This document shows positions 1,061 through 20,553 of a stretch of 24,372 bases of DNA, piece by piece (position 1 is the first letter of the stretch; every line of letters starts with the position of its first letter). Made by a program: the position numbers and the translations under genes. Origin of the DNA: a virus; the IMG/VR virus record IMGVR_UViG_3300025110_000123, positions 1 through 24,372 of that record; one strand, 5' to 3'. The notes under the pieces are model-generated. The model was not told the origin of the DNA, did no database searches, and saw only the letters and a program-made list of their open reading frames with translations.

Positions 1061-3478
1061 TTATTTTGGCTCAAAAGCCTCCATATTAAATCCGCTACCC
1101 ATTGTATCATTTCCAGCAGACTCAAATTGTTGCGATCCCCTTTTATCTTTCCTTTGTTCTATAAGTTCTGATTGTTGGCTCGCTTGTATTCTTGTTCTTT
1201 CATCTTTTCTGTCTTCTTTATATTTTTCTTTCTTATCAAGAACACTATTTTCTTTTTCTAAAGTCATTTGATTTAATTGAAATTCAAATTGCATTAATTC
1301 TTTCTTTAGTTCTTTTTCTTTTTGTAATTTTTGTAATTCTAACTGGCTCTCCATTTTTAATAGCTCAGATTTTTGATTAGTAATAGCAGCATTTTTTTCT
1401 ACTTCCATTTTTGCAGCAACTTGTGTATTTTGAGAATTTGCATTAGCTTGAGCCTGTATATTAGCTTGTTGCTTTTGCATATCTGCCGCTTCCTTATTTT
1501 TCCTTCTTAATTTTAAAAGCTGGTTTGCTAATTTTAAATTTTTAACTTCTCTAATATCAATAGCATCTTCTAAAAATATTTGGTCCTTTGCTAGTGCTTG
1601 TTGAATATTATTTTCTAATAATTGTTTTTCTTCTTCATCGGGTGCTAATTCAATAAATATTCCAAAGTCATGTAAATGCAGTTTAGAGGCCTCCCCTAAT
1701 GTTCCTACATTGAATCTGCCTAAAGAAGCTACAAAAGCGTCTCTTGTTGGTGCAAATTCAAGAACGTCGGAAATTCTTAAACTTACCGATTCTGCTGTTT
1801 TTGCTGTTAAATATAAACTAGATTGTAGTATATGTCTTGTAGCTGTATTTGAATTAGCCGCTGCTAATTTTTGTACCCCAACTAATGCATTTTTATCAGG
1901 GGTACTAGCATCTCTCGCTTCGTTTAATCCGGTAACATCTCTTATCATTTGTAAATAATAATTATAAGTATTTATTAAAGACCCTATTTTATTATTACCA
2001 CCGTTGGAAGTTAATTCTTGAATAGGAACTTTTCCATGGTTTAAATCCCCGTCCTGTGTCATACTTCTACCAATTACAGAACCGGTTTGGAAAAACATAT
2101 TTAATGCTTCTTGCGGATTATAATTTGTACCATTACCTAAATCAATTTCTGCCAATCCATCTGCATCTAAATAAACTCCATCTGGAATCATTCTAGCAAG
2201 TACTTGTTGTAATTTTAAATGTGTTAATTGAATCATATCGGCAAAACTAGTTATTCTACTAACTAATGATTCGATTTTACCTTTATAAATTCTAGGGGAA
2301 ACAATATTATAATTTAACCACGCTTTAGTTCCATCAGCTTTAGGTCTAATCATGTTTTTAGATTTAGCCCATTTTAGTAATTTATTTTTTCCTAAAATAT
2401 AAACACCATCATAAACTGTCTCTAAAGACCTCCCTTCTTTAATAAACAATTCACTTTCTTCGGGATTGAATTGATCAGTTTTTTCAATAGCTTTTTCGCC
2501 TCCAGAAGCTGTTGTCTTAATTTTATAAACTTCATTATTAAAAGTTTTAAAATTAAAATATAATACTTGAATAGTATTGGCGTCTAATACAGCGTCCTCA
2601 TTTATATATCTATTATGTGAAGCAGAGGTTTGCACGCCTTGCTGCGAAATTTCCTTTAATTCATCTTTTGTCATATAAGGAAACTCCTGCATCAAATCAT
2701 TTATATTAACACTTTTAACTTCCCCAACATAATAAATATCATCAAAATAAGGTGAATCTGTATAAGAATAAACCATATTTGCTGGATCACAATATTCTAT
2801 TTTAATACCTTGTGTTGTAGTAAAAGTATTTTTTACACATCCAATACCTAAGACAGTAAGATCATAATTTATTCTTTTTTTAGTTAAATCAAAATTATTA
2901 TCTTCAAAAATATAATTAATAGCTTGTTCTTCAGCTATTTCCACAGATTGTTTATAATCTAATTGCATGTGAAGAGCGAGATCTTCTGGGGTATCTGGAA
3001 TTGCATCAGGATCATTAGCTAGTGTATTAACACCTAAGGTATTTTGTATATTTCCAGCAAAGTCTTTTATTGCCATATCTCTTAATAGAGACTCTACATA
3101 TTGAGTTCTTTCTGCTACTGATGAAGGGTCTTGCGAAAATGCTTTAATATCATAAAGCCTATCTGACATACCATTAACTACTATATCTACAAATTTAGGA
3201 ATAATAGGAACAGGCTTCCAGTCTAAATTTAAATAAGATAAATCTCCATTTATAGATAATTCATCTTTATATTTTTTTACAGATTGTTCGCCTCTTGCGT
3301 ATAATCTTAATCTATGATATTCATCCCTATTAGAATAAAATCTAGTTGATCCAGAATCTCTTTTGAACCACTCATGCTCAATAGCACGAGCTACTTTCAA
3401 ACCGTATTCTTGACTCGCTTTTTCTTGGTCACTAGCTATTTGACTAGGAAAAGAACTTTTTAATATTGTTTCTGCCAT
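1061..3478 (-). CDS. Portal protein
   Basis: An 805-aa protein directly after TerL (one base between the genes). The portal forms the dodecameric ring at the capsid vertex through which DNA is packaged and ejected. The N-terminal half has the usual portal look: an early region rich in Tyr and Arg (residues 45-75), a segment describing a fold with WKPVPIIPKFVDIVVNGMSD near residues 87-106, and a mid-protein helix-rich stem region around residues 400-560 (for example GLNEARDAS). From about residue 616 to 780 the chain is almost continuously helical and rich in Gln, Lys, Glu and Ala, consistent with a long C-terminal barrel or coiled coil. At about 800 aa it is larger than most siphovirus portals and close to crAss-like and some other podovirus portals. 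Identification rests on family resemblance and on the terminase-portal order. Confidence 0.85.
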   Translation of the reverse strand: MAETILKSSFPSQIASDQEKASQEYGLKVARAIEHEWFKRDSGSTRFYSNRDEYHRLRLYARGEQSVKKYKDELSINGDLSYLNLDWKPVPIIPKFVDIVVNGMSDRLYDIKAFSQDPSSVAERTQYVESLLRDMAIKDFAGNIQNTLGVNTLANDPDAIPDTPEDLALHMQLDYKQSVEIAEEQAINYIFEDNNFDLTKKRINYDLTVLGIGCVKNTFTTTQGIKIEYCDPANMVYSYTDSPYFDDIYYVGEVKSVNINDLMQEFPYMTKDELKEISQQGVQTSASHNRYINEDAVLDANTIQVLYFNFKTFNNEVYKIKTTASGGEKAIEKTDQFNPEESELFIKEGRSLETVYDGVYILGKNKLLKWAKSKNMIRPKADGTKAWLNYNIVSPRIYKGKIESLVSRITSFADMIQLTHLKLQQVLARMIPDGVYLDADGLAEIDLGNGTNYNPQEALNMFFQTGSVIGRSMTQDGDLNHGKVPIQELTSNGGNNKIGSLINTYNYYLQMIRDVTGLNEARDASTPDKNALVGVQKLAAANSNTATRHILQSSLYLTAKTAESVSLRISDVLEFAPTRDAFVASLGRFNVGTLGEASKLHLHDFGIFIELAPDEEEKQLLENNIQQALAKDQIFLEDAIDIREVKNLKLANQLLKLRRKNKEAADMQKQQANIQAQANANSQNTQVAAKMEVEKNAAITNQKSELLKMESQLELQKLQKEKELKKELMQFEFQLNQMTLEKENSVLDKKEKYKEDRKDERTRIQASQQSELIEQRKDKRGSQQFESAGNDTMGSGFNMEAFEPK

Positions 3479-3479
3479 G

Positions 3480-5690
3480 CTATCTAATTATTTGCGAATG
3501 CACTCCTTTATTGTTAAATTTTGAAATTTTAAGATCTAATGTGGGTTTTTCATATTTTGGTCTAGGGTGATATAAATGTCTATTGCAAGCCATAATGGCT
3601 AAACCGGAACTAATCGAAGCATCATATTTTGTTCTTTTATTTATATCGAATCTTGCCCAATCATTAAGTGTTTTATTGAAATATATATTTCCAGCCCCAT
3701 CATTTTGTAGGCCAACATGCTTTTCTATATATGTCTCTATTGCAGCTGCGTGGGCTTGTTTTACATCTTCTGATGTATTTGGTATTCCTCCAATTTCTTT
3801 TTCTGTAACAGATAATTTATTACTTAACTTATCAGGGCGATTCATTGAGAACCCTCTATACCCTCTCCTCTTTAAATAATATAATAATCTAGGTTTATTA
3901 TTCTCAGCTAAAATTGGCATTGCATAATAAGCTAAAGCCATTAAGACATCTTCAAAAAATATTTCAGCTGTTTGTGGTCTAGCTATATATTCTAAAAAGA
4001 ATGTATTTGGTGGAACATTCTCCATAGAGAATTTTGTTAATCCGTGTAAAGCCCCTTTAGAGCCAATACCGTCAGTAGTACCTGATATATCATATGAGTC
4101 ACATCCAAAAGCACCCATATGCTCATTACCTGGATACCTTATACCATTTTTTACTATAATATTATTTTGTAAAGCAGATTCAGGTGTCCATGCAATTAAA
4201 AATCTACCGTTCTGAGATGGATGAAAAATAACCCTTGTGTCTTTTATTCCATTCTCCCAAACAAAAGAACCTTTTGTTATTATTCCTTTTCTAATAAGAT
4301 CTTCATTCCAATCTATTTGTTCATATATTTTTGTTAAATTGAATATGCTATTATTAGCCTCATCCCTAAATGCGTGCTCTTCTGTTCTTGGGAATTGTCT
4401 ATAATATTCATTTAAACCATCAGAATCGTGTTTTAATCCCTCAACTTCATTTTCCCAAAACTCTATAACCCCGGTGTCAATAAATTCTTCATCGTTTCCA
4501 AGCGTCGGTTTTTCCGGCGTATTAAAGACAGGGTGTCCATAAGAATCAATGTATCCTTCGTAATTCCATTCCATAGGTACGAACAAACTATATAGTCCCG
4601 TGCTAGTTTGTCCATTACGATTTCTTTTTGTGACGTCTGAATCATTATATAGTTTTTTAAAATTATCGCCTCCTTTATCAAGTGCATTAGAAGTAGACCC
4701 CATCATACACTTTCCAATTATTTTTCTTCCTAATCTTAACGTCGTTTTCGTAACCCGCCAGTTGTTGAGGATGTTGTCGGGCCTCTCCCATTTGCCGGAT
4801 TCGTCGTGGGCAAGGAGTTGTAACTTCTCCCCATCGTAGGAGTTGTCCCCGGTGTTCTTCCAATCGATGGTTGTATCCAACCCCTGGAGTTCCTTTTCAA
4901 GGGCTGTACTAGTTTCCAATTTCTTTCTGGTAAGTTTCGAGGCAGGGACTCTATACGCGAGTTCCGTCTTGGGGCGGTCCATACCGTCCTGGATCGGTTT
5001 GAAAAAGAAGGGATAGTTAACTGATATTGGTACCACTTTGTCAGTAAACATTTTCTTCGCATCAGCTCCAGTTTTAGATAATATTCCATATCGTGAATCA
5101 GAGGATATAGTGGCCTGGTGTACCAGTTCTGATGATGCCATGAAAGAAAATCCCGATCTACGATTCTTAAGGTAGCACATTCCGTAACACCTAATATCGG
5201 ATTTACACGCTTCCCAAAAAATAAAGAAAAGTCTGTTTGCTTCTCGAAAGTCTGGCTTCCCAACATCAATCTTGGTCCACTGCAAGTACATATAGTGAGA
5301 ACCAGTGATATAAGTAGGAACGCCTTTATTATAAAACCAAAAACCTTCTTCACGTTTTTTAAACTCATCATTAATATAATCATACCATTTATTTTTAAAA
5401 GTTTCCGGATAACCTTCCCAATCAAAAATAGTTCGTATTCTATCTAATTCTTTTGGGTGTTCTTTTGGTACCCATTTATTATTTGTATTAACTATATTTT
5501 TAGGGGCAAGTGGAAGTGCAACTGGTAAATTTTGAATTTCTACTATTTCTCCAATTTGACCAGTTTTGCTAATAACAATAATATCATGCTCTTTATTATA
5601 CCCGTATTCCCATTTTTTTTGTTTATTAAGCCTCTTTATAATATTTTGTCTAATTGGGGTAATTGTTTTTACAAGATTTTGCTCGTACAT
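3480..5690 (-). CDS. terL: Terminase large subunit (DNA-packaging ATPase and nuclease)
   Basis: A 736-aa packaging motor. The N-terminal ATPase shows a Walker A-like loop at residues 175-182 (KNRRSGFS), which lacks the usual Lys before the final Ser, and a clear Walker B at 291-297 (QLLAHDE; D296 and E297). A probable coupling motif GSTSN lies at 331-335. The C-terminal RNase H-like nuclease has candidate metal ligands D531 or D534 (GCDSYD), E596 (ILAENNKPR) and D690 (KYDASIS). The start ATG overlaps the upstream gene's stop by one base (TAATG), which suggests translational coupling; the portal follows after one base. A stretch covering roughly residues 226-317 uses G/C-ending codons and is about 52% GC, quite unlike the rest of the gene (see findings). 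The frame is intact across it. Confidence 0.92.
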   Translation of the reverse strand: MYEQNLVKTITPIRQNIIKRLNKQKKWEYGYNKEHDIIVISKTGQIGEIVEIQNLPVALPLAPKNIVNTNNKWVPKEHPKELDRIRTIFDWEGYPETFKNKWYDYINDEFKKREEGFWFYNKGVPTYITGSHYMYLQWTKIDVGKPDFREANRLFFIFWEACKSDIRCYGMCYLKNRRSGFSFMASSELVHQATISSDSRYGILSKTGADAKKMFTDKVVPISVNYPFFFKPIQDGMDRPKTELAYRVPASKLTRKKLETSTALEKELQGLDTTIDWKNTGDNSYDGEKLQLLAHDESGKWERPDNILNNWRVTKTTLRLGRKIIGKCMMGSTSNALDKGGDNFKKLYNDSDVTKRNRNGQTSTGLYSLFVPMEWNYEGYIDSYGHPVFNTPEKPTLGNDEEFIDTGVIEFWENEVEGLKHDSDGLNEYYRQFPRTEEHAFRDEANNSIFNLTKIYEQIDWNEDLIRKGIITKGSFVWENGIKDTRVIFHPSQNGRFLIAWTPESALQNNIIVKNGIRYPGNEHMGAFGCDSYDISGTTDGIGSKGALHGLTKFSMENVPPNTFFLEYIARPQTAEIFFEDVLMALAYYAMPILAENNKPRLLYYLKRRGYRGFSMNRPDKLSNKLSVTEKEIGGIPNTSEDVKQAHAAAIETYIEKHVGLQNDGAGNIYFNKTLNDWARFDINKRTKYDASISSGLAIMACNRHLYHPRPKYEKPTLDLKISKFNNKGVHSQIIR

Positions 5691-5965
5691 TATTTAGATC
5701 TTTTTTCAGCAAACCCACTAAAAGCTTGCTTATTTTCTACAGGCTTATCCTCCATCAAATTTTTTTCATTTTCAATACGAGATAATATTTCAAATGCATC
5801 AAATATTGCTAATTTTTTTGTAGCAGCAGCATTTTTTAATCTATCTGCAGCTAATTCATCATCTTTGTCTTCAACAATAATTTCTTCTTCTGCTACTTTT
5901 ATTAATTCCTCTACTGCTTTATACCCAGCTTGGATTATATTCGACTTCATCTTTTTTATGTTCAT
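5690..5965 (-). CDS. Small conserved protein upstream of TerL (candidate small terminase or packaging accessory)
   Basis: A 91-aa, mostly helical, charged protein whose stop overlaps the TerL start by one base. Its core at about residues 15-70 (VEELIKVAEEE, AADRLKNAAATKKLAIFDAFEILSRI region) resembles, from memory, a small protein that repeatedly precedes the terminase in marine and Bacteroidota phages. Position and size would fit a small terminase subunit or another packaging accessory, but no helix-turn-helix is obvious, so this is inference. The start is ambiguous: the first ATG overlaps the preceding gene by 47 bases, and a second in-frame ATG five codons later (MKSNII) would shorten the overlap to 32 bases. 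Confidence 0.72.
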   Translation of the reverse strand: MNIKKMKSNIIQAGYKAVEELIKVAEEEIIVEDKDDELAADRLKNAAATKKLAIFDAFEILSRIENEKNLMEDKPVENKQAFSGFAEKRSK

Positions 5966-6518
5966 ATTTAATTGAAATTGAATTTATAGGCACTCTATAA
6001 AGTCTTTGGTCTCCAATAACAAACTCATACTCACTATTTGGAGTAAAACCTATTAAATCATTAGCTTTAAGTCCAAAGCTCCTTAAATCATCCCCTAAGT
6101 ACTTTAAAACGCCTATTAGAGGCTTTTCTTTATCTGTAGTGTACTTATTTTTATTTTTTATTGGTTTTACAAAGCAAAATCCGTCCGTAGGCATCCAATC
6201 ATTTTTATTCTTATATAAAAATATTTGATCATAATAGCAAAAGTATAAATCTTCTTTAAAATAACTCTTACTATTTTTTTCCTCTCCCCTAACATTATAA
6301 TATCTCCTAAAAATATTATGATGAATAATTACTTCGTCTCCAACATTTATATTATTAATATTATCAATCATAGGGGTTGCAATAACCTCTCCAAATCTAT
6401 TAACAAATTTGTGATCTTCTATTGATGTATTTAATATTAATTCTTTGTCTTGTATCTTAATCTTGTTATTATATCTACCATTAATTGGCTTTATAATATA
6501 ACAATGAATATTTTTCAT
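5919..6518 (-). CDS. Double GroES-fold-like protein (putative co-chaperonin-like)
   Basis: A 199-aa beta-rich protein with two halves that each resemble a GroES (chaperonin-10) barrel. Half 1 (about residues 1-105) has the GroES-type pattern of a conserved turn, RFGEVIATP at 41-49, followed by INVGDEVIIHHN at 57-68, matching the family's 'vkvGD.Vi' strand. Half 2 (about 109-186) repeats it with DGFCFVKPI at 112-120, IGVLKY at 135-140, KANDLIGFTP at 151-160 and a closing LYRVPINSISIKY. Similar proteins near phage terminases have been annotated as co-chaperonin GroES; this is from memory. I see no GroES mobile loop with confidence. Its job could be capsid folding with a host or phage GroEL, or an unrelated structural use of the fold. 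It sits three genes after a run of small conserved proteins and overlaps the next gene. Confidence 0.6.
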   Translation of the reverse strand: MKNIHCYIIKPINGRYNNKIKIQDKELILNTSIEDHKFVNRFGEVIATPMIDNINNINVGDEVIIHHNIFRRYYNVRGEEKNSKSYFKEDLYFCYYDQIFLYKNKNDWMPTDGFCFVKPIKNKNKYTTDKEKPLIGVLKYLGDDLRSFGLKANDLIGFTPNSEYEFVIGDQRLYRVPINSISIKYEHKKDEVEYNPSWV

Positions 6519-7267: not shown

Positions 7268-7849
7268 TTACGTTTTTCGCTCTAGGTAAGTTAAATTACC
7301 ATTTAATGAAACTCTTTTTTCGCCTGAAGATTCTCCAGGTTTATGCATAATATCACCTCCAAAAAATACAGTTTCTCCTAACTTTGGATAATAACTTTCA
7401 GGGTTATTCTCAGTATCATAAAATATTATATGATCACCTTCTGATAATTCTAAATAAGTCACTGCTACATAATCAGCAGTTTGATGCTGATGAGGAGGAT
7501 TATCAATCCAGTCTTCATTCGGCTGGTAAAGATACCAAGATTCAAAAAGAAATAAGTCTTTTCCCTCTATCCCCTCTTTATTAATGTGCTCATTGAAAGG
7601 AGTACAAATATATTCTTCCCATTCAAGATGTAGCCCTCTGTTTCTTAAATCATTTTGATACCCAGGCCCTTTACTTTTAGGATCCATTTCAATGGGTGTA
7701 TAAAAAGAATTAAAATTATTAGAATTATATATGTCCATATAGTAATCATGCACACTATAATTATTTTGTAACAATTTTTCTATTAATACATTATCTTTAT
7801 TGTCTAAAGTAAATATTTTATTTCCTGCTATATTGTGTTCTTTTATCAT
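7268..7849 (-). CDS. 2-oxoglutarate/Fe(II)-dependent oxygenase family protein
   Basis: A 193-aa protein with a double-stranded beta-helix core in its C-terminal half. Candidate ligands are H120 and H122 (NPPHQHQTADY), the distal H169 (GGDIMHKPGE) and a 2-oxoglutarate-binding R179 (GEKRVSLNGNL). The spacing and the strand with VTYLELSEGDHIIFYD fit the phage-type 2OG-Fe(II) oxygenase families (2OG-FeII_Oxy_5-like). Such enzymes hydroxylate proteins or modified bases; the substrate cannot be read from sequence. The start ATG overlaps the stop of the upstream adhesin gene as ATGA, which ties its translation to a virion surface protein and makes a virion or host-surface target plausible (inference). 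The N-terminal 100 residues are less conserved. Confidence 0.75.
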   Translation of the reverse strand: MIKEHNIAGNKIFTLDNKDNVLIEKLLQNNYSVHDYYMDIYNSNNFNSFYTPIEMDPKSKGPGYQNDLRNRGLHLEWEEYICTPFNEHINKEGIEGKDLFLFESWYLYQPNEDWIDNPPHQHQTADYVAVTYLELSEGDHIIFYDTENNPESYYPKLGETVFFGGDIMHKPGESSGEKRVSLNGNLTYLERKT

Positions 7850-8523
7850 TTTACGTAAACTTCTTTCAATTGACTTGTGTAACTACCAGCACATGCGGTA
7901 AATTGTTGGAATAGCCTTGTAGTAGTATTTAGCGTACCGTGGAATTCTACAGTAAATCCAGTGCCTACCTGATCAGAGTATCTATTAGGGTAATTATTAC
8001 ATGCCCCATTTAATTGAGTTGCTGTACCTTGTAACTGAGTTCTGCTACTTGTGGTGCTTGTCCAATAAGGCCCACAAACAACACCACCATTATCACTAAC
8101 ATATAAAACTACTATTCTAACTTTCGTTATACTAAAATCACTAACAAAAGTAGAATTTAAATCAAGATAACTTTTTTGGGAATCTCCACCACATCCGTAG
8201 CTATTTGCCTGTGCATGTGTACCATTATTAGCGTTTAGTAGTGCTGTGCCACTGCCACCACCTGCTGCCATATTACTACCACCAGTACCGTGCCCACCAG
8301 ATAAAAGAGTGCTATATACCGAATTGCTAAGATTAACATTTATCCAACCCCCACCAGCGTCCATTTTTATATATGCCTCATAAGCGCCCGAACCTCCGTT
8401 TATCCAGTAATTGCCCGATGTTGTTATCCCGGCATTATATAAAGCTATACCTGAGGCGGCCGGATTACCTTCCGTCCCTAACGCCGATCCAAAAGCCCCA
8501 GAAAGTAATGATTGTCCAAACAT
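7846..8523 (-). CDS. Fibrinogen-C-like adhesin or tail tip protein
   Basis: A 225-aa Gly/Ser/Asn-rich beta protein. The N-terminus (MFGQSLLSGAFGSALG) is typical of virion-attached tip proteins. Residues about 26-65 follow the fibrinogen C-terminal/galaxin-like pattern: SGxYWI near 36-41, then a short hydrophobic segment YEAYIKMD and GGGWINV. Several Cys (in GCGGD, VVCGP, NGACNN and TACAG) could form disulfides or metal sites. In phages such domains are used for binding sugars or surface receptors. It directly precedes the 2OG oxygenase with an ATGA overlap and follows a fibre gene by one base. GC content is raised in its 5' portion (about 8401-8510). The receptor is unknown. Confidence 0.6.
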   Translation of the reverse strand: MFGQSLLSGAFGSALGTEGNPAASGIALYNAGITTSGNYWINGGSGAYEAYIKMDAGGGWINVNLSNSVYSTLLSGGHGTGGSNMAAGGGSGTALLNANNGTHAQANSYGCGGDSQKSYLDLNSTFVSDFSITKVRIVVLYVSDNGGVVCGPYWTSTTSSRTQLQGTATQLNGACNNYPNRYSDQVGTGFTVEFHGTLNTTTRLFQQFTACAGSYTSQLKEVYVK

Positions 8524-8524
8524 A

Positions 8525-9031
8525 TTATGATGCTATTTGTGAAATTGTGTACCAAAATTCTGTTGCGCCTACGCAAGTTACTTGTACAAAGTTTTTCTTA
8601 GAAGAAGTATCATCGTAATCTCCTGATATTTTATTAAATGTACCGGAAGCTCCTCCAACATTAAAAGCTAAAGTTCTGCTACCACCAGAGCCTGTTATAA
8701 CTATTGCTTTAGTAACACCAATTACGGGGTTAGTAATATTTATAGTCATATTAGCATTAGGCGTTAATGTAAATACTTGTGCTGCGGTATAATCTAACAC
8801 TACAGGAGAAGCCATTGTTAAAGCTGCTGCTGTAGTAAATTCATTACCCGCTTTAGCACTAGTCACACTATCATTAGCTAGTTTAGCTGTAGTTACATTA
8901 ACATCAACTATATTAGCAGTTACTACCGCATCATCCGCTAATTTAGCAGCTGTTACAGCATCCGCAACTATTTTTGAAGTTGTTACAGCATCATCGTTTA
9001 GTACGTTACTTGTTACTTTAGTTAAAGCCAT
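8525..9031 (-). CDS. Short tail-fibre protein with the shared C-terminal module
   Basis: A 168-aa protein in two parts. Residues 14-63 are five tandem 10-residue repeats of the form DAVTxAKLAD, the stalk type common in marine phage fibres. Residues 64-168 are a compact beta module containing ITGSGGSRTLAF, NKISGDYDD, NFVQV and FWYTISQ. The same module ends the 217-aa protein (16543-17196) and, more distantly, the 650-aa fibre (21652-23604). It probably trimerises, with the module at the tip as cap or receptor-binding head (inference). The leader is pure A/T with no Shine-Dalgarno. There is no enzymatic motif. Confidence 0.72.
   Translation of the reverse strand: MALTKVTSNVLNDDAVTTSKIVADAVTAAKLADDAVVTANIVDVNVTTAKLANDSVTSAKAGNEFTTAAALTMASPVVLDYTAAQVFTLTPNANMTINITNPVIGVTKAIVITGSGGSRTLAFNVGGASGTFNKISGDYDDTSSKKNFVQVTCVGATEFWYTISQIAS
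8843..8992 (-). repeat. Five tandem 30-bp repeats encoding a 10-residue fibre stalk
   Basis: Within the 168-aa fibre gene, codons 14-63 form five consecutive 10-codon units (D/V-x-V-T-x-A-K-x-A-x). The third and fourth units are the most diverged. Slippage or recombination between units could change stalk length. Confidence 0.7.
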
Positions 9032-17376: not shown

Positions 17377-17850
17377 TTAAATTATTTTATATTTAGTTTT
17401 TCCTTTATCTTTATATGCTTGTAATACGCGCATTCTATTTGATCCTAAAGAGTAACTTGCGTGAACCCAAGCAGGATTTCCGCCAGGGGTCCAAGGCTCA
17501 TCGCCAAATTCCCAAATTAATTGGTCAAATTCGAGGTTATCTTTAATGTAATTAAAAAAATCAGCATTTGTAGCCCCTCCGTAAATATCATCAATATCAA
17601 TCGCTTCACCTTTGCAATGTTGCGATTTTGTACTCCCCCCAATTGCTTTGTTTAATTTTGGGGAACGATAAAATGAACTTATAAATATAGGTTTACCTAT
17701 AAATTCTCTAAGTGGTTCAAAAATATGAGTTGCTGTTATTCTCATATTTTCAACAATTTCCGGATCAGGGAAATTTTCTATATTTAATCTCTGTGCAGTA
17801 TTTGATCTAGTTGCCTCTTTCAAGGTAATGTGATCTGATATATTAAACAT
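17377..17850 (-). CDS. M15-family peptidoglycan endopeptidase (putative endolysin)
   Basis: A 157-aa zinc metallopeptidase of the M15A_3 type (D-Ala-D-Ala carboxypeptidase or L,D-endopeptidase fold). Zinc ligands are H78 and D85 in SQHCKGEAIDID and H130 in WVHASY. The family signature SSFYRSPKLNKAIGGSTKSQH (58-78) precedes them, and FDQLIWEFG (108-116) supplies the usual catalytic acid E114. Length is typical for a single-domain phage enzyme; there is no cell-wall-binding domain and no signal peptide, so it needs a holin. It would cut peptidoglycan peptides at lysis, or less likely at entry. Neighbours: the 41-aa CxxC gene before and the 56-aa membrane gene after. Confidence 0.9.
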   Translation of the reverse strand: MFNISDHITLKEATRSNTAQRLNIENFPDPEIVENMRITATHIFEPLREFIGKPIFISSFYRSPKLNKAIGGSTKSQHCKGEAIDIDDIYGGATNADFFNYIKDNLEFDQLIWEFGDEPWTPGGNPAWVHASYSLGSNRMRVLQAYKDKGKTKYKII

Positions 17851-18000: not shown

Positions 18001-18441
18001 TTATCTTGTGTTATCGTTATACATGTCTTTTATTGACTTATTAAAAACTTTACTCGTGTAGTTATTGTTTTTATTAAAGATATTTCTATTAGAAAAAGGA
18101 ATATCATCTTCACCTAATAAAATCTTATATATTCTAGTTATTAAATGCTTGCATTTTGTAGATGTTTTAAAAACAGTGTATTTTATAGTTGTTCTATTCC
18201 TATGTGCAAATACATCTATCCAGCCTTTACTTCTTAGCCTCTCCCATCTATTTTTATCCCAAGAATGTATATAAGTTCCTTTAATGTAATCATTTCTTGT
18301 AAATTTATCTAAACAATCAAAATGAATTAATAATTCTAAATCTGCATCTGTTAGATTATAGGTTTTACAAGCCCACTTCCTTACTAATCTATAATATTTA
18401 AATAAACCAATTTCTCTAATATTATCTGCTTCTAATCTCAT
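18001..18441 (-). CDS. Winged-helix (MarR-like) DNA-binding protein
   Basis: A 146-aa basic protein. An N-terminal helical part (LFKYYRLVRKWACKTYNLTDADLELLIHFDC, residues 13-43) is followed by FTRNDYIKGTY and WDKNRWERLRSKGWIDVFAHRNRTTIKYTVF at about 61-91. That is the helix-turn-helix plus beta-wing layout of MarR-type regulators: recognition helix around WERLRSKGWI and a wing at AHRNRTTIKYTVF. A C-terminal helix then reads KHLITRIYKILLGEDDIP. I recall similar proteins in marine phages. It starts at the GroES stop with an ATGA overlap, so it belongs to the chaperonin transcript, which makes it a candidate regulator of late or lysis genes. Target unknown. Confidence 0.65.
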   Translation of the reverse strand: MRLEADNIREIGLFKYYRLVRKWACKTYNLTDADLELLIHFDCLDKFTRNDYIKGTYIHSWDKNRWERLRSKGWIDVFAHRNRTTIKYTVFKTSTKCKHLITRIYKILLGEDDIPFSNRNIFNKNNNYTSKVFNKSIKDMYNDNTR

Positions 18442-18707
18442 AATACAACGACTACATCTTGTTCCTTGATTACTTGAAGTAAACTATCTTCGTATTCAAT
18501 GCCGTAGCCGGCGTGTTTATCATAATAGATTTGATCACCTTTTTTTACCCCCTCTACATAATTACCAACAGCTTCTACCGTGGCTTCTTTATATCTAATT
18601 TCTTCTTGAAATTTTTCTGTAAGCAATAAACCATTTTTTTTAAGCGGTTCTTTTTTCGTGGGTTTTATTATAATGTATTTATTGACTGCTCTCATCTTCT
18701 CTAACAT
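18438..18707 (-). CDS. groES: GroES-type co-chaperonin
   Basis: An 89-aa chaperonin-10 protein. After a short N-terminus (MLEKMRAVNKYIIIKPTKKEP) the usual barrel follows. The mobile-loop region is KKNGLLLTEKFQEEIRYKEATVEAVG (24-49), longer on charge than in bacterial GroES and without the 'GGIVL' seen in E. coli. Then comes VKKGDQIYYDKHAGYGIEYEDSLLQVIKEQDVVVVL, which matches the family's 'vkvGD.V.y.kyaG.....d.....i.e.Di.av'. It would cap the GroEL encoded just upstream. The start is ambiguous: MRAVNKY, four codons later, would also fit and would shorten the overlap with GroEL from 29 to 17 bases. The gene is coupled to the winged-helix gene by ATGA. Confidence 0.85.
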   Translation of the reverse strand: MLEKMRAVNKYIIIKPTKKEPLKKNGLLLTEKFQEEIRYKEATVEAVGNYVEGVKKGDQIYYDKHAGYGIEYEDSLLQVIKEQDVVVVL

Positions 18708-20244
18708 TTGAAATTACACAGTCTGCAGACATTATAGTCGTTGCTACGGATACAGCATTTTTTAAAGCTGTTTTTGTAACAAGTACTGGATCAATTATAC
18801 CTTCTTTTATTAAATTACAATTATCACCTGTATTTACATTAATACCATATCCTTTTATATCTTTATAATTTTCATAAGGTATTCCCGCATTATCTAAAAT
18901 TACCTTGCAAGGTTCTTTTATTGCTTCTAATAAAATATTTTCTCCTTTATTTTCAGTTTTTATATTACTAGAAATATTATGTAGTGCTGCTCCGCCACCT
19001 GGAACAATACCTTCTTTTAAGGCCGCTTTTACAGCATAAATAGCATCTTCTACTCTGTCCTTTTTTTCTTTTAATTCTATTTCAGAATTGGCACCTACTT
19101 TTATAATTCCTACAGAACCTAGTAGCATTGCCTTTCTTTCTTCTAATTTTTTAATTTTAAAAGGATTTTTTAATGCTTTAATTTGTTTGTCTATAGACTT
19201 TATTCTTTCGTCTATTATTTTTTTATCAGCATCAACAGTTATTATAGTATTATAACTATCAGTAACAACCTTTTTACAATAACCAAGACAATCAACATCT
19301 ATAAGATCTAGATCATCACCTAGTTCCTCACTTATTAATTTAGCCCCTGTTAGCAGACTTAGGTCTTCTAAAATATCTTTTCTTGTTAATGAAAAAGACG
19401 GAGGATCAATAATATTTACTTTTATATTTCCTTTTACTTTATTCATTATAAGAGCCGATAATGGTTGCTCCACTAAATTTGCTATAATAAGTATTGCTTT
19501 TTTATTTTTTATTGCATATTCTAAAACAGTCTGTATTTTTCTTATAGTTGTTACTTCTGAATCCACTATAAGTACAAGAGCATCTTCTAATACTGATTTA
19601 CTTTTTTCTTTATCTGTTATAAGGTGAGGTGATTTAAGAGCTGACTCAAATTGCACTCCATCTACGATCTCAACGTGCGTTTTTTCAGTGTCAGACTCCT
19701 CCATAAGCACAACACCTGTATTACCTACTTTTTTATATGCATCTGCTATAATGCCACCTAGTTCTTTATCATTATTAGTGGAAATTTCAGCAACATGGTT
19801 AAGCATTGAATCATTTACCGGGATTGCTTCTTTATCTAATAATTTTATTACTTTTTCAGTAGCAGATAAGATCCCTTCTTTTATCTTTCTAAGATTACTT
19901 GATTTAGAATCTATATACTTTGTTAAAATGGAGTGAGCAAGGACGGTAGATGTGGTGGTGCCGTCACCTGCTTCTTTTACTGTTTTTTGAGCTGCCTCTT
20001 TTATGAGGGTTGCACCGACATTTTCGGTAGAGTCCATAAGAACTACGCTATTTGCAACAGTTACTCCATCCTTAGTTACTATTGGGTTTCCTGCGGTATC
20101 TTCATAGATAACACATTTACCCGATGCACCAAGGGTTGATTTAACGGCATTATTTAATTTATTAATGCCTTTCATTACTTTAGTTTGCGCGTTATTGCCA
20201 AAATATAAATTTTTGACAATACTATTTGGTTGATTAAATTGCAT
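18679..20244 (-). CDS. groEL: GroEL-type chaperonin (phage-encoded Cpn60)
   Basis: A 521-aa group I chaperonin. Equatorial ATP-site motifs are intact: KDGVTVA with D59 (E. coli D52), GDGTTT at 93-98 with D94 (D87), and RVED with D400 (D398), followed by GIVPGGG at 412-418. The intermediate-domain and hinge region IIKVGANSEIE(L)KEKKDRVEDA is canonical. So ATP binding and hydrolysis are predicted. The apical domain is divergent: the usual YLSPYF is LKSPHL at 203-208, and the usual APGFGD is PPSFSL at 281-286. The C-terminal GGM tail is missing; the protein ends VREDESSQ, about 27 residues shorter than E. coli GroEL. It is followed by its GroES with overlap. Role: folding phage virion proteins, perhaps major capsid or fibres. 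Confidence 0.93.
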   Translation of the reverse strand: MQFNQPNSIVKNLYFGNNAQTKVMKGINKLNNAVKSTLGASGKCVIYEDTAGNPIVTKDGVTVANSVVLMDSTENVGATLIKEAAQKTVKEAGDGTTTSTVLAHSILTKYIDSKSSNLRKIKEGILSATEKVIKLLDKEAIPVNDSMLNHVAEISTNNDKELGGIIADAYKKVGNTGVVLMEESDTEKTHVEIVDGVQFESALKSPHLITDKEKSKSVLEDALVLIVDSEVTTIRKIQTVLEYAIKNKKAILIIANLVEQPLSALIMNKVKGNIKVNIIDPPSFSLTRKDILEDLSLLTGAKLISEELGDDLDLIDVDCLGYCKKVVTDSYNTIITVDADKKIIDERIKSIDKQIKALKNPFKIKKLEERKAMLLGSVGIIKVGANSEIELKEKKDRVEDAIYAVKAALKEGIVPGGGAALHNISSNIKTENKGENILLEAIKEPCKVILDNAGIPYENYKDIKGYGINVNTGDNCNLIKEGIIDPVLVTKTALKNAVSVATTIMSADCVISNVREDESSQ

Positions 20245-20262: not shown

Positions 20263-20553
20263 TTATTTAAAAGTTTTGACTACTTTTGGGCCATTTAAGA
20301 ATTCTATTTTCTTTTCATAATGTTCTATAGAAGCATCAATAGCAGATTCCGCGCCTTCTATTGTTTCTCTTCTAGTAACATCTACCCAATTGTCGTCACT
20401 GTCAATGTCTTTATACTCGGTTTGATAAAATCCATTGGGTAATTGGACAATTCGCCAATTTGGTTTTTCAGATAAATGTTTCCAAAACTTTTTTGTTTTA
20501 TCTGATACTTGTGGTTGACTACTCCACGATTGAGTCTGGTAAAATAGTGTCAT
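20263..20553 (-). CDS. Conserved small phage protein preceding GroEL
   Basis: A 96-aa protein of unknown function. Its pattern is PNWRIVQLPNGFYQTEYKD...DDNWVDVTRRETIEGAESAIDASIEHYEKKIEFLNGPKVVKTF. I recall very similar short proteins in marine phages (cyanophage and pelagiphage contigs), always without an assigned function. The middle looks like a beta hairpin, the end like a helix rich in Glu and Lys. It starts after a possible hairpin (20582-20602) and ends 18 bases before the GroEL start, so it probably heads the chaperonin operon. Confidence 0.7.
   Translation of the reverse strand: MTLFYQTQSWSSQPQVSDKTKKFWKHLSEKPNWRIVQLPNGFYQTEYKDIDSDDNWVDVTRRETIEGAESAIDASIEHYEKKIEFLNGPKVVKTFK

Follow-up and report, generated by a model that had tools for sequence, protein, structure and literature searches.

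Does a phage that encodes both halves of a GroEL/GroES chaperonin use them to fold its own late proteins, and is the pair truly phage property? The question is raised by a 24.4-kb virus sequence from a marine phage, the IMG/VR record IMGVR_UViG_3300025110_000123, which is referred to here over its whole length as the window, and in which a sequence-only reading had located a complete GroEL/GroES pair at positions 18438-20244. When the window terminase and portal protein were compared with annotated phages, relatives were found in Flavobacterium Elemovirus, in phages of Cellulophaga, Tenacibaculum and Maribacter, and in a podovirus from spring water (62.7% identity for the terminase). Judging from these relatives, the host of the window phage is most likely a flavobacterium.

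The groEL-groES pair and its genomic context

The features of the window that are discussed in this work are shown in Table 1. Both open reading frames of the pair were found to be intact, and their assignment was confirmed by Pfam and PHROG. The deduced GroEL matched Pfam PF00118 (E = 1.8e-50; 172.5 bits, cutoff 34.3) and the PHROG groEL family (E = 4.5e-131), and it passed the NCBIfam subfamily models NF009487 (461 versus a cutoff of 352) and NF000592 (458.1 versus 397). Since its score remained below the cutoff of the stricter NCBIfam equivalog TIGR02348 (452.5 versus 582.1), this GroEL is classified by its sequence as a divergent member of the group I chaperonins. The deduced GroES matched Pfam PF00166 (E = 6.8e-11; 42.5 bits, cutoff 21.1) and reached none of the NCBIfam GroES cutoffs. 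The overlap of up to 29 bases described previously corresponds to 29 nt when groES is started at ATG 18707, and to 17 nt when it is started at ATG 18695; in the alignment, the GroES proteins of the relatives begin at the methionine of the sequence MRAVNKY/MKAVNKY, which is ATG 18695 in the window. The gene order groEL-groES is the reverse of the E. coli order groS-groL.

Table 1. Features of the 24.4-kb window and the evidence for their assignment.
Feature	Coordinates	Strand	Evidence and remarks
Portal protein	1061-3478	minus	PHROG 1.9e-147; relatives
Terminase large subunit	3480-5690	minus	PHROG 9.4e-167; best phage relatives infect flavobacteria
T, 199 aa, probably two tandem Cpn10-like domains	5919-6518	minus	Just upstream of terminase
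M15 peptidase endolysin	17377-17850	minus	Pfam PF08291 1.3e-14, PHROG endolysin; downstream of the groEL/groES cassette
146-aa protein, no confident family	18001-18441	minus	Directly after groES; synteny in clade
groES (Cpn10 co-chaperonin), 89 aa; 85 aa from ATG 18695	18438-18707	minus	Pfam PF00166, alignment
groEL (Cpn60, group I chaperonin), 521 aa	18679-20244	minus	Pfam, PHROG, ATP residues, tree
96-aa protein	20263-20553	minus	Directly precedes groEL throughout clade; synteny

A scan of IMG/VR viral sequences revealed 33 contigs whose GroEL is 56-71% identical to that of the window, plus one at 37%, and groES adjoins groEL in all 33 close contigs. The four-gene cassette formed by the 96-aa protein, groEL, groES and the 146-aa protein keeps its gene order at almost every clade locus listed. 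The 96-aa protein had no family match in Pfam or PHROG, and the 146-aa protein gave weak family matches only; a homologue of the latter comes directly after groES at almost every clade locus listed. In the Manatee Spring podovirus, Elemovirus and Panino, this homologue is also close to the pair but is encoded on the other strand, and its annotation in the Manatee Spring podovirus is "repressor protein". The late genes of the window with family matches (terminase, portal, fibres, holin and endolysin) all lie on the same strand as the pair, in agreement with the co-orientation with virion genes that had been noticed earlier. Elsewhere in the window, an open reading frame at 7268-7849 (minus strand) showed weak PHROG matches to a 2OG-Fe(II) oxygenase and to endonuclease V.

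Residues of the phage GroEL and anatomy of its GroES

The sequence-only reading had stated that the residues of the ATP site are kept, and the alignment bears this out for all residues scored: the ATP/Mg residues (T30, G32, K51, D52, G53, D87-T91, I150, S151, D398, G416, I493 and D495 in E. coli numbering) are unchanged in the window GroEL and in all members (34/34) of the clade to which it belongs. Relative to E. coli, the apical binding face of the clade carries Q at L234 (34/34), H at Y203 (33/34) and L at Y199 (31/34). The inter-ring loop residues S463/V464 are deleted in all 34 clade GroELs, E461 is not kept in the window, and the clade proteins extend only 1-7 residues past position 525, the GGM tail being absent. 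On account of L234Q, Y203H and the S463/V464 deletion, the ring form and the lid binding of the phage GroEL could, as far as the sequence indicates, differ from those of E. coli.

In the mobile loop of the window GroES, the sequence GLLLT is found where E. coli has GIVLTG, so that the hydrophobic GroEL-binding triplet is kept; in the clade the corresponding sequence is mostly G-L/F-I/L-L/I/M. The mobile-loop segment of the clade is 1-3 aa longer than that of most bacteria. In 57/58 clade proteins the roof segment is 7 aa long, compared with 16 aa in E. coli and 11-17 aa in 71 of the 75 bacterial GroES sampled; as it is likewise shorter (11 aa) in about a third of the sampled bacterial proteins, the shortening in the clade is a matter of degree. 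The co-chaperonin gp31 of T4, which folds the T4 capsid protein gp23, is devoid of roof loops and has a longer mobile loop (PMC6318259), and the missing roof hairpin is therefore not decisive against the identity of the window protein as GroES. A single-sequence structure model of the window GroES reached a pLDDT of 38.8 and was left out of the analysis.

A Cpn10-like protein encoded next to the terminase

The window contains a second co-chaperonin-like gene (T in Table 1), which is absent from the sequence-only reading. The T protein matched the PHROG co-chaperonin GroES family (2.1e-19), and it is annotated merely as GroES/cpn10 in several relatives. A chaperonin cpn10 is listed among the core proteins of the Pervagoviridae (PMC8776804), and we infer that this core protein is likely T. 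The reading of T as an ordinary GroES on sequence grounds was rejected, the window copy being without a Pfam Cpn10 match. A phmmer search of T against the PDB found nothing, and a profile search of the PDB returned one match, to an unrelated acyltransferase (E = 0.035).

An AlphaFold2 model of T built with 63 sequences had a pLDDT of 87. Its best match among solved structures is the plastid Cpn20 chain 7ekq_R (Foldseek E = 4.8e-4; VIA-align Z 9.4, rmsd 4.0, 158 aligned, residues 1-186). Plastid Cpn20 consists of two Cpn10 domains in one chain; the sequence identity between T and chloroplast Cpn20 is about 13%. The C half of T was aligned with bacterial GroES profiles at an hhalign E of 3.5e-6, the best of 20 shuffled controls being 0.0068. 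In structural comparisons, the same half matched GroES structures with Z values of 7-8.6 (rmsd 2.2-2.8 over 75-80 aligned for most), among them 8wuc_a (Z 8.6, rmsd 2.4, 78 aligned), and T4 gp31 (1g31) with Z 6.4, rmsd 2.8 and 75 aligned; a mobile loop bearing a hydrophobic triplet was not apparent in the C half. For the N half, the profile comparisons gave 0.0013 (phage GroES) and 0.0096 (bacterial GroES) against 0.0015 for the best shuffled control, from which the N half was thus not clearly separated; owing to this lack of sequence support, the assignment of the N half is taken from the predicted model. Residues 27-31 of this half read L-I-L-N-T with hardly any variation, and the loop that contains them is modelled with lower pLDDT, which recalls a mobile loop. 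T is thus probably composed of two GroES-like domains in one chain, as suggested by sequence and model for the C half and by the model for the N half.

A divergent homologue of T in L035 (6813-7658, plus strand; 281 aa; gene order T-groES-groEL) does reach the Pfam Cpn10 cutoff (27.8 versus 21.1), and its N-terminal extension looks, by eye, like a further, third Cpn10-like unit. When records were fetched by T alone, and not by GroEL, Cpn60 and Cpn10 were present in 8/8 of those of at least 58 kb (G001-G004, G025-G028). T-bearing records of less than 53 kb in which Cpn60 is absent (G006, G007, G009, G010, G024 and G029) may be fragments. Purifying selection is clear on all three genes, with a median dN/dS of 0.18 for groEL, 0.30 for groES and 0.17 for T. 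In the open-access library searched, no report of tandem Cpn10 proteins in phages was found.

A putative folding cage for late phage proteins

These features are, in our judgement, probably best understood as those of a cage in which the phage folds its own late proteins, closed by a lid modified along the lines of gp31. The phage GroEL would bind unfolded late phage proteins, and ATP together with the phage GroES would close the cage, in which these proteins would fold. The shortened roof and slightly longer mobile loop of the lid may act as gp31 does when it makes room for the T4 capsid protein, and by the same analogy the main client would be the capsid protein or another large late protein. 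T may become part of the lid, in the way that Cpn20 associates with Cpn10 in plastids. The sequences themselves show the gene content, the kept ATP-site and mobile-loop residues, the shortened roof, the purifying selection and the shared inheritance with the terminase; the assembly of the cage, its client, its timing and the role of T are what we infer from these data. The sequence-only reading took the pair to imply a virion protein that the host GroEL cannot fold well, and the existence of such a protein is plausible.

T could stand outside the folding machine, with its Cpn10-like fold serving as an accessory of the capsid or of packaging, or as a cap that diverts the host Clp protease; we give this view a substantial though minor share of probability. 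The best solved match of T is a plastid Cpn20 chain from entry 7ekq, where Cpn20 is bound up with ClpP in one complex, and T stays beside the terminase and portal genes across distant phages. Moreover, the N half is without sequence support as Cpn10, and T persists in the complete genome of Cellulophaga phage phi18:3 (L302/L303), where no GroEL was detected by HMM and a plain GroES is present. The presence of Cpn60 and Cpn10 in all near-complete records fetched by T argues against it, as does the nearly invariant L-I-L-N-T loop of the N half. Since phi18:3 lacks GroEL, the chaperonin is not required in all relatives; the plain GroES that this phage keeps means that both co-chaperonins could use the host GroEL, and phi18:3 suggests that they can work with it.

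If T does belong to the cage, the solution known from plastids, where Cpn10 and Cpn20 combine in mixed lids (PMC4242682), may have been reached independently in these phages: T and the plain phage GroES would form a mixed lid on the phage GroEL, giving a phage-owned cage tied to the capsid and packaging genes. We regard this extension as tentative, and on present evidence somewhat doubtful.

It is unlikely that the chaperonin mainly serves replication, lysis or host-takeover enzymes, or the proteome of the infected cell, and that virion proteins are no special clients. The cassette does adjoin the M15 endolysin and two uncharacterised proteins, and not the capsid genes, and in Elemovirus the pair and the structural genes occupy opposite strands; however, in the window, as in its close relatives, the pair is co-oriented with the late genes, and the gp31-like features of the lid point to a large client.

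Origin and inheritance of the pair

A maximum-likelihood tree was constructed with 71 sequences. The GroEL clade of the window is monophyletic with a support of 100/100 and falls outside all 45 bacterial sequences in the tree, which agrees with the phage clade carrying both genes that the sequence-only reading had named as supporting evidence. The opposite outcome considered there, a placement of both genes within a single bacterial genus with signs of contamination, was not observed: no bacterial GroEL in the genome scan exceeded 42% identity to that of the window, and the cassette is shared by 33 related IMG/VR contigs. The clade groups only weakly (91/64) with the GroELs of Elemovirus, Panino and the Manatee Spring podovirus, long branches being involved, and for this reason we do not claim a single phage origin of the flavophage GroELs. 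Over 27 loci, the distances of GroEL and of TerL are correlated (rho 0.80, Mantel p 0.002), and those of GroEL, GroES, T and the terminase are correlated in the same way (rho 0.80-0.89, Mantel p 0.002 each). As read from these sequence comparisons, the pair is old phage gene content that has been inherited vertically. Although the best PDB match of the window GroEL is a reconstructed ancestral GroEL of the Fibrobacteres-Chlorobi-Bacteroidetes, which makes a bacterial source at some time likely, contamination or a recent capture from the host is ruled out for practical purposes by the genome scan, by the position of the clade outside all sampled bacteria, by the identical cassette layout in more than 30 contigs and by GroEL distances that track those of TerL.

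Comparison with known phage chaperonin systems

The sequence-only reading regarded a GroEL/GroES pair next to fibres and a terminase as unusual, and this view was not supported. By tblastn, a Cpn60 match was obtained in at least 282 phage records; some of these are relatives of giant phages matched with partial coverage, and a few resemble bacterial sequence deposited under a phage name. Annotations of both genes exist for Elemovirus, Immutovirus, Cellulophaga phage phi40:1 and the Manatee Spring podovirus. In 2017, GroEL was described in 36 marine phage genomes putatively assigned to Flavobacteriaceae hosts (PMC5332604), GroEL and GroES homologues have been noted in Panino (PMC11590407), and the presence of both genes in some phages is mentioned in a structural paper (PMC7185714). 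The pair is thus not rare in this phage group. In Tenacibaculum phage Gundel_1 (L305), no chaperonin gene was found, and a ClpX-like ATP-binding subunit is annotated at 7823-8638.

Pairs in related cultured phages, as well as GroEL in putative marine Flavobacteriaceae phages, were accordingly known before. What is new is T, a probable double Cpn10-like protein beside the terminase, which we consider a more interesting lead than the pair itself. Many marine phage contigs of this group retain GroEL, GroES and this protein jointly, and in phage chaperonins the most thoroughly studied folding machine is available in specialised forms that arose in nature. As cultured relatives exist (Elemovirus, Callevirus and Panino), it can be tested directly for which phage protein a cage of its own is required, and whether there is a mixed Cpn10/tandem-Cpn10 lid outside plastids. 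Phage phi18:3 provides a natural test case for co-chaperonins that work with the host GroEL.

Elemovirus (NC_062743) and the Manatee Spring podovirus (MW202828) share with the window the order groEL-groES, the portal/terminase family and the terminase-adjacent T gene, but their GroELs are only 36-39% identical to that of the window, and in Elemovirus the pair does not share the strand of the late genes as it does in the window. Among the Callevirus phages (Pervagoviridae), phi40:1 resembles the window in having GroEL and Cpn10, and phi38:1 in having T, whereas groES lies upstream of groEL with one gene between, and the sequences are more distant. Pseudomonas phage EL also encodes a GroEL homologue, gp146, but this protein is very distant from the window GroEL (29.8% over 39% of the query); it shows no functional interaction with E. 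coli GroES, and its encapsulating state was not seen (PMC7185714). In contrast to the phage EL chaperonin, the window groEL has groES adjoining it. Finally, T4 gp31 and the window GroES have in common a short roof segment and a longer mobile loop, the loop of gp31 being longer still, but T4 has no GroEL of its own and uses that of its host, whereas the window phage encodes both the lid and the chaperonin.
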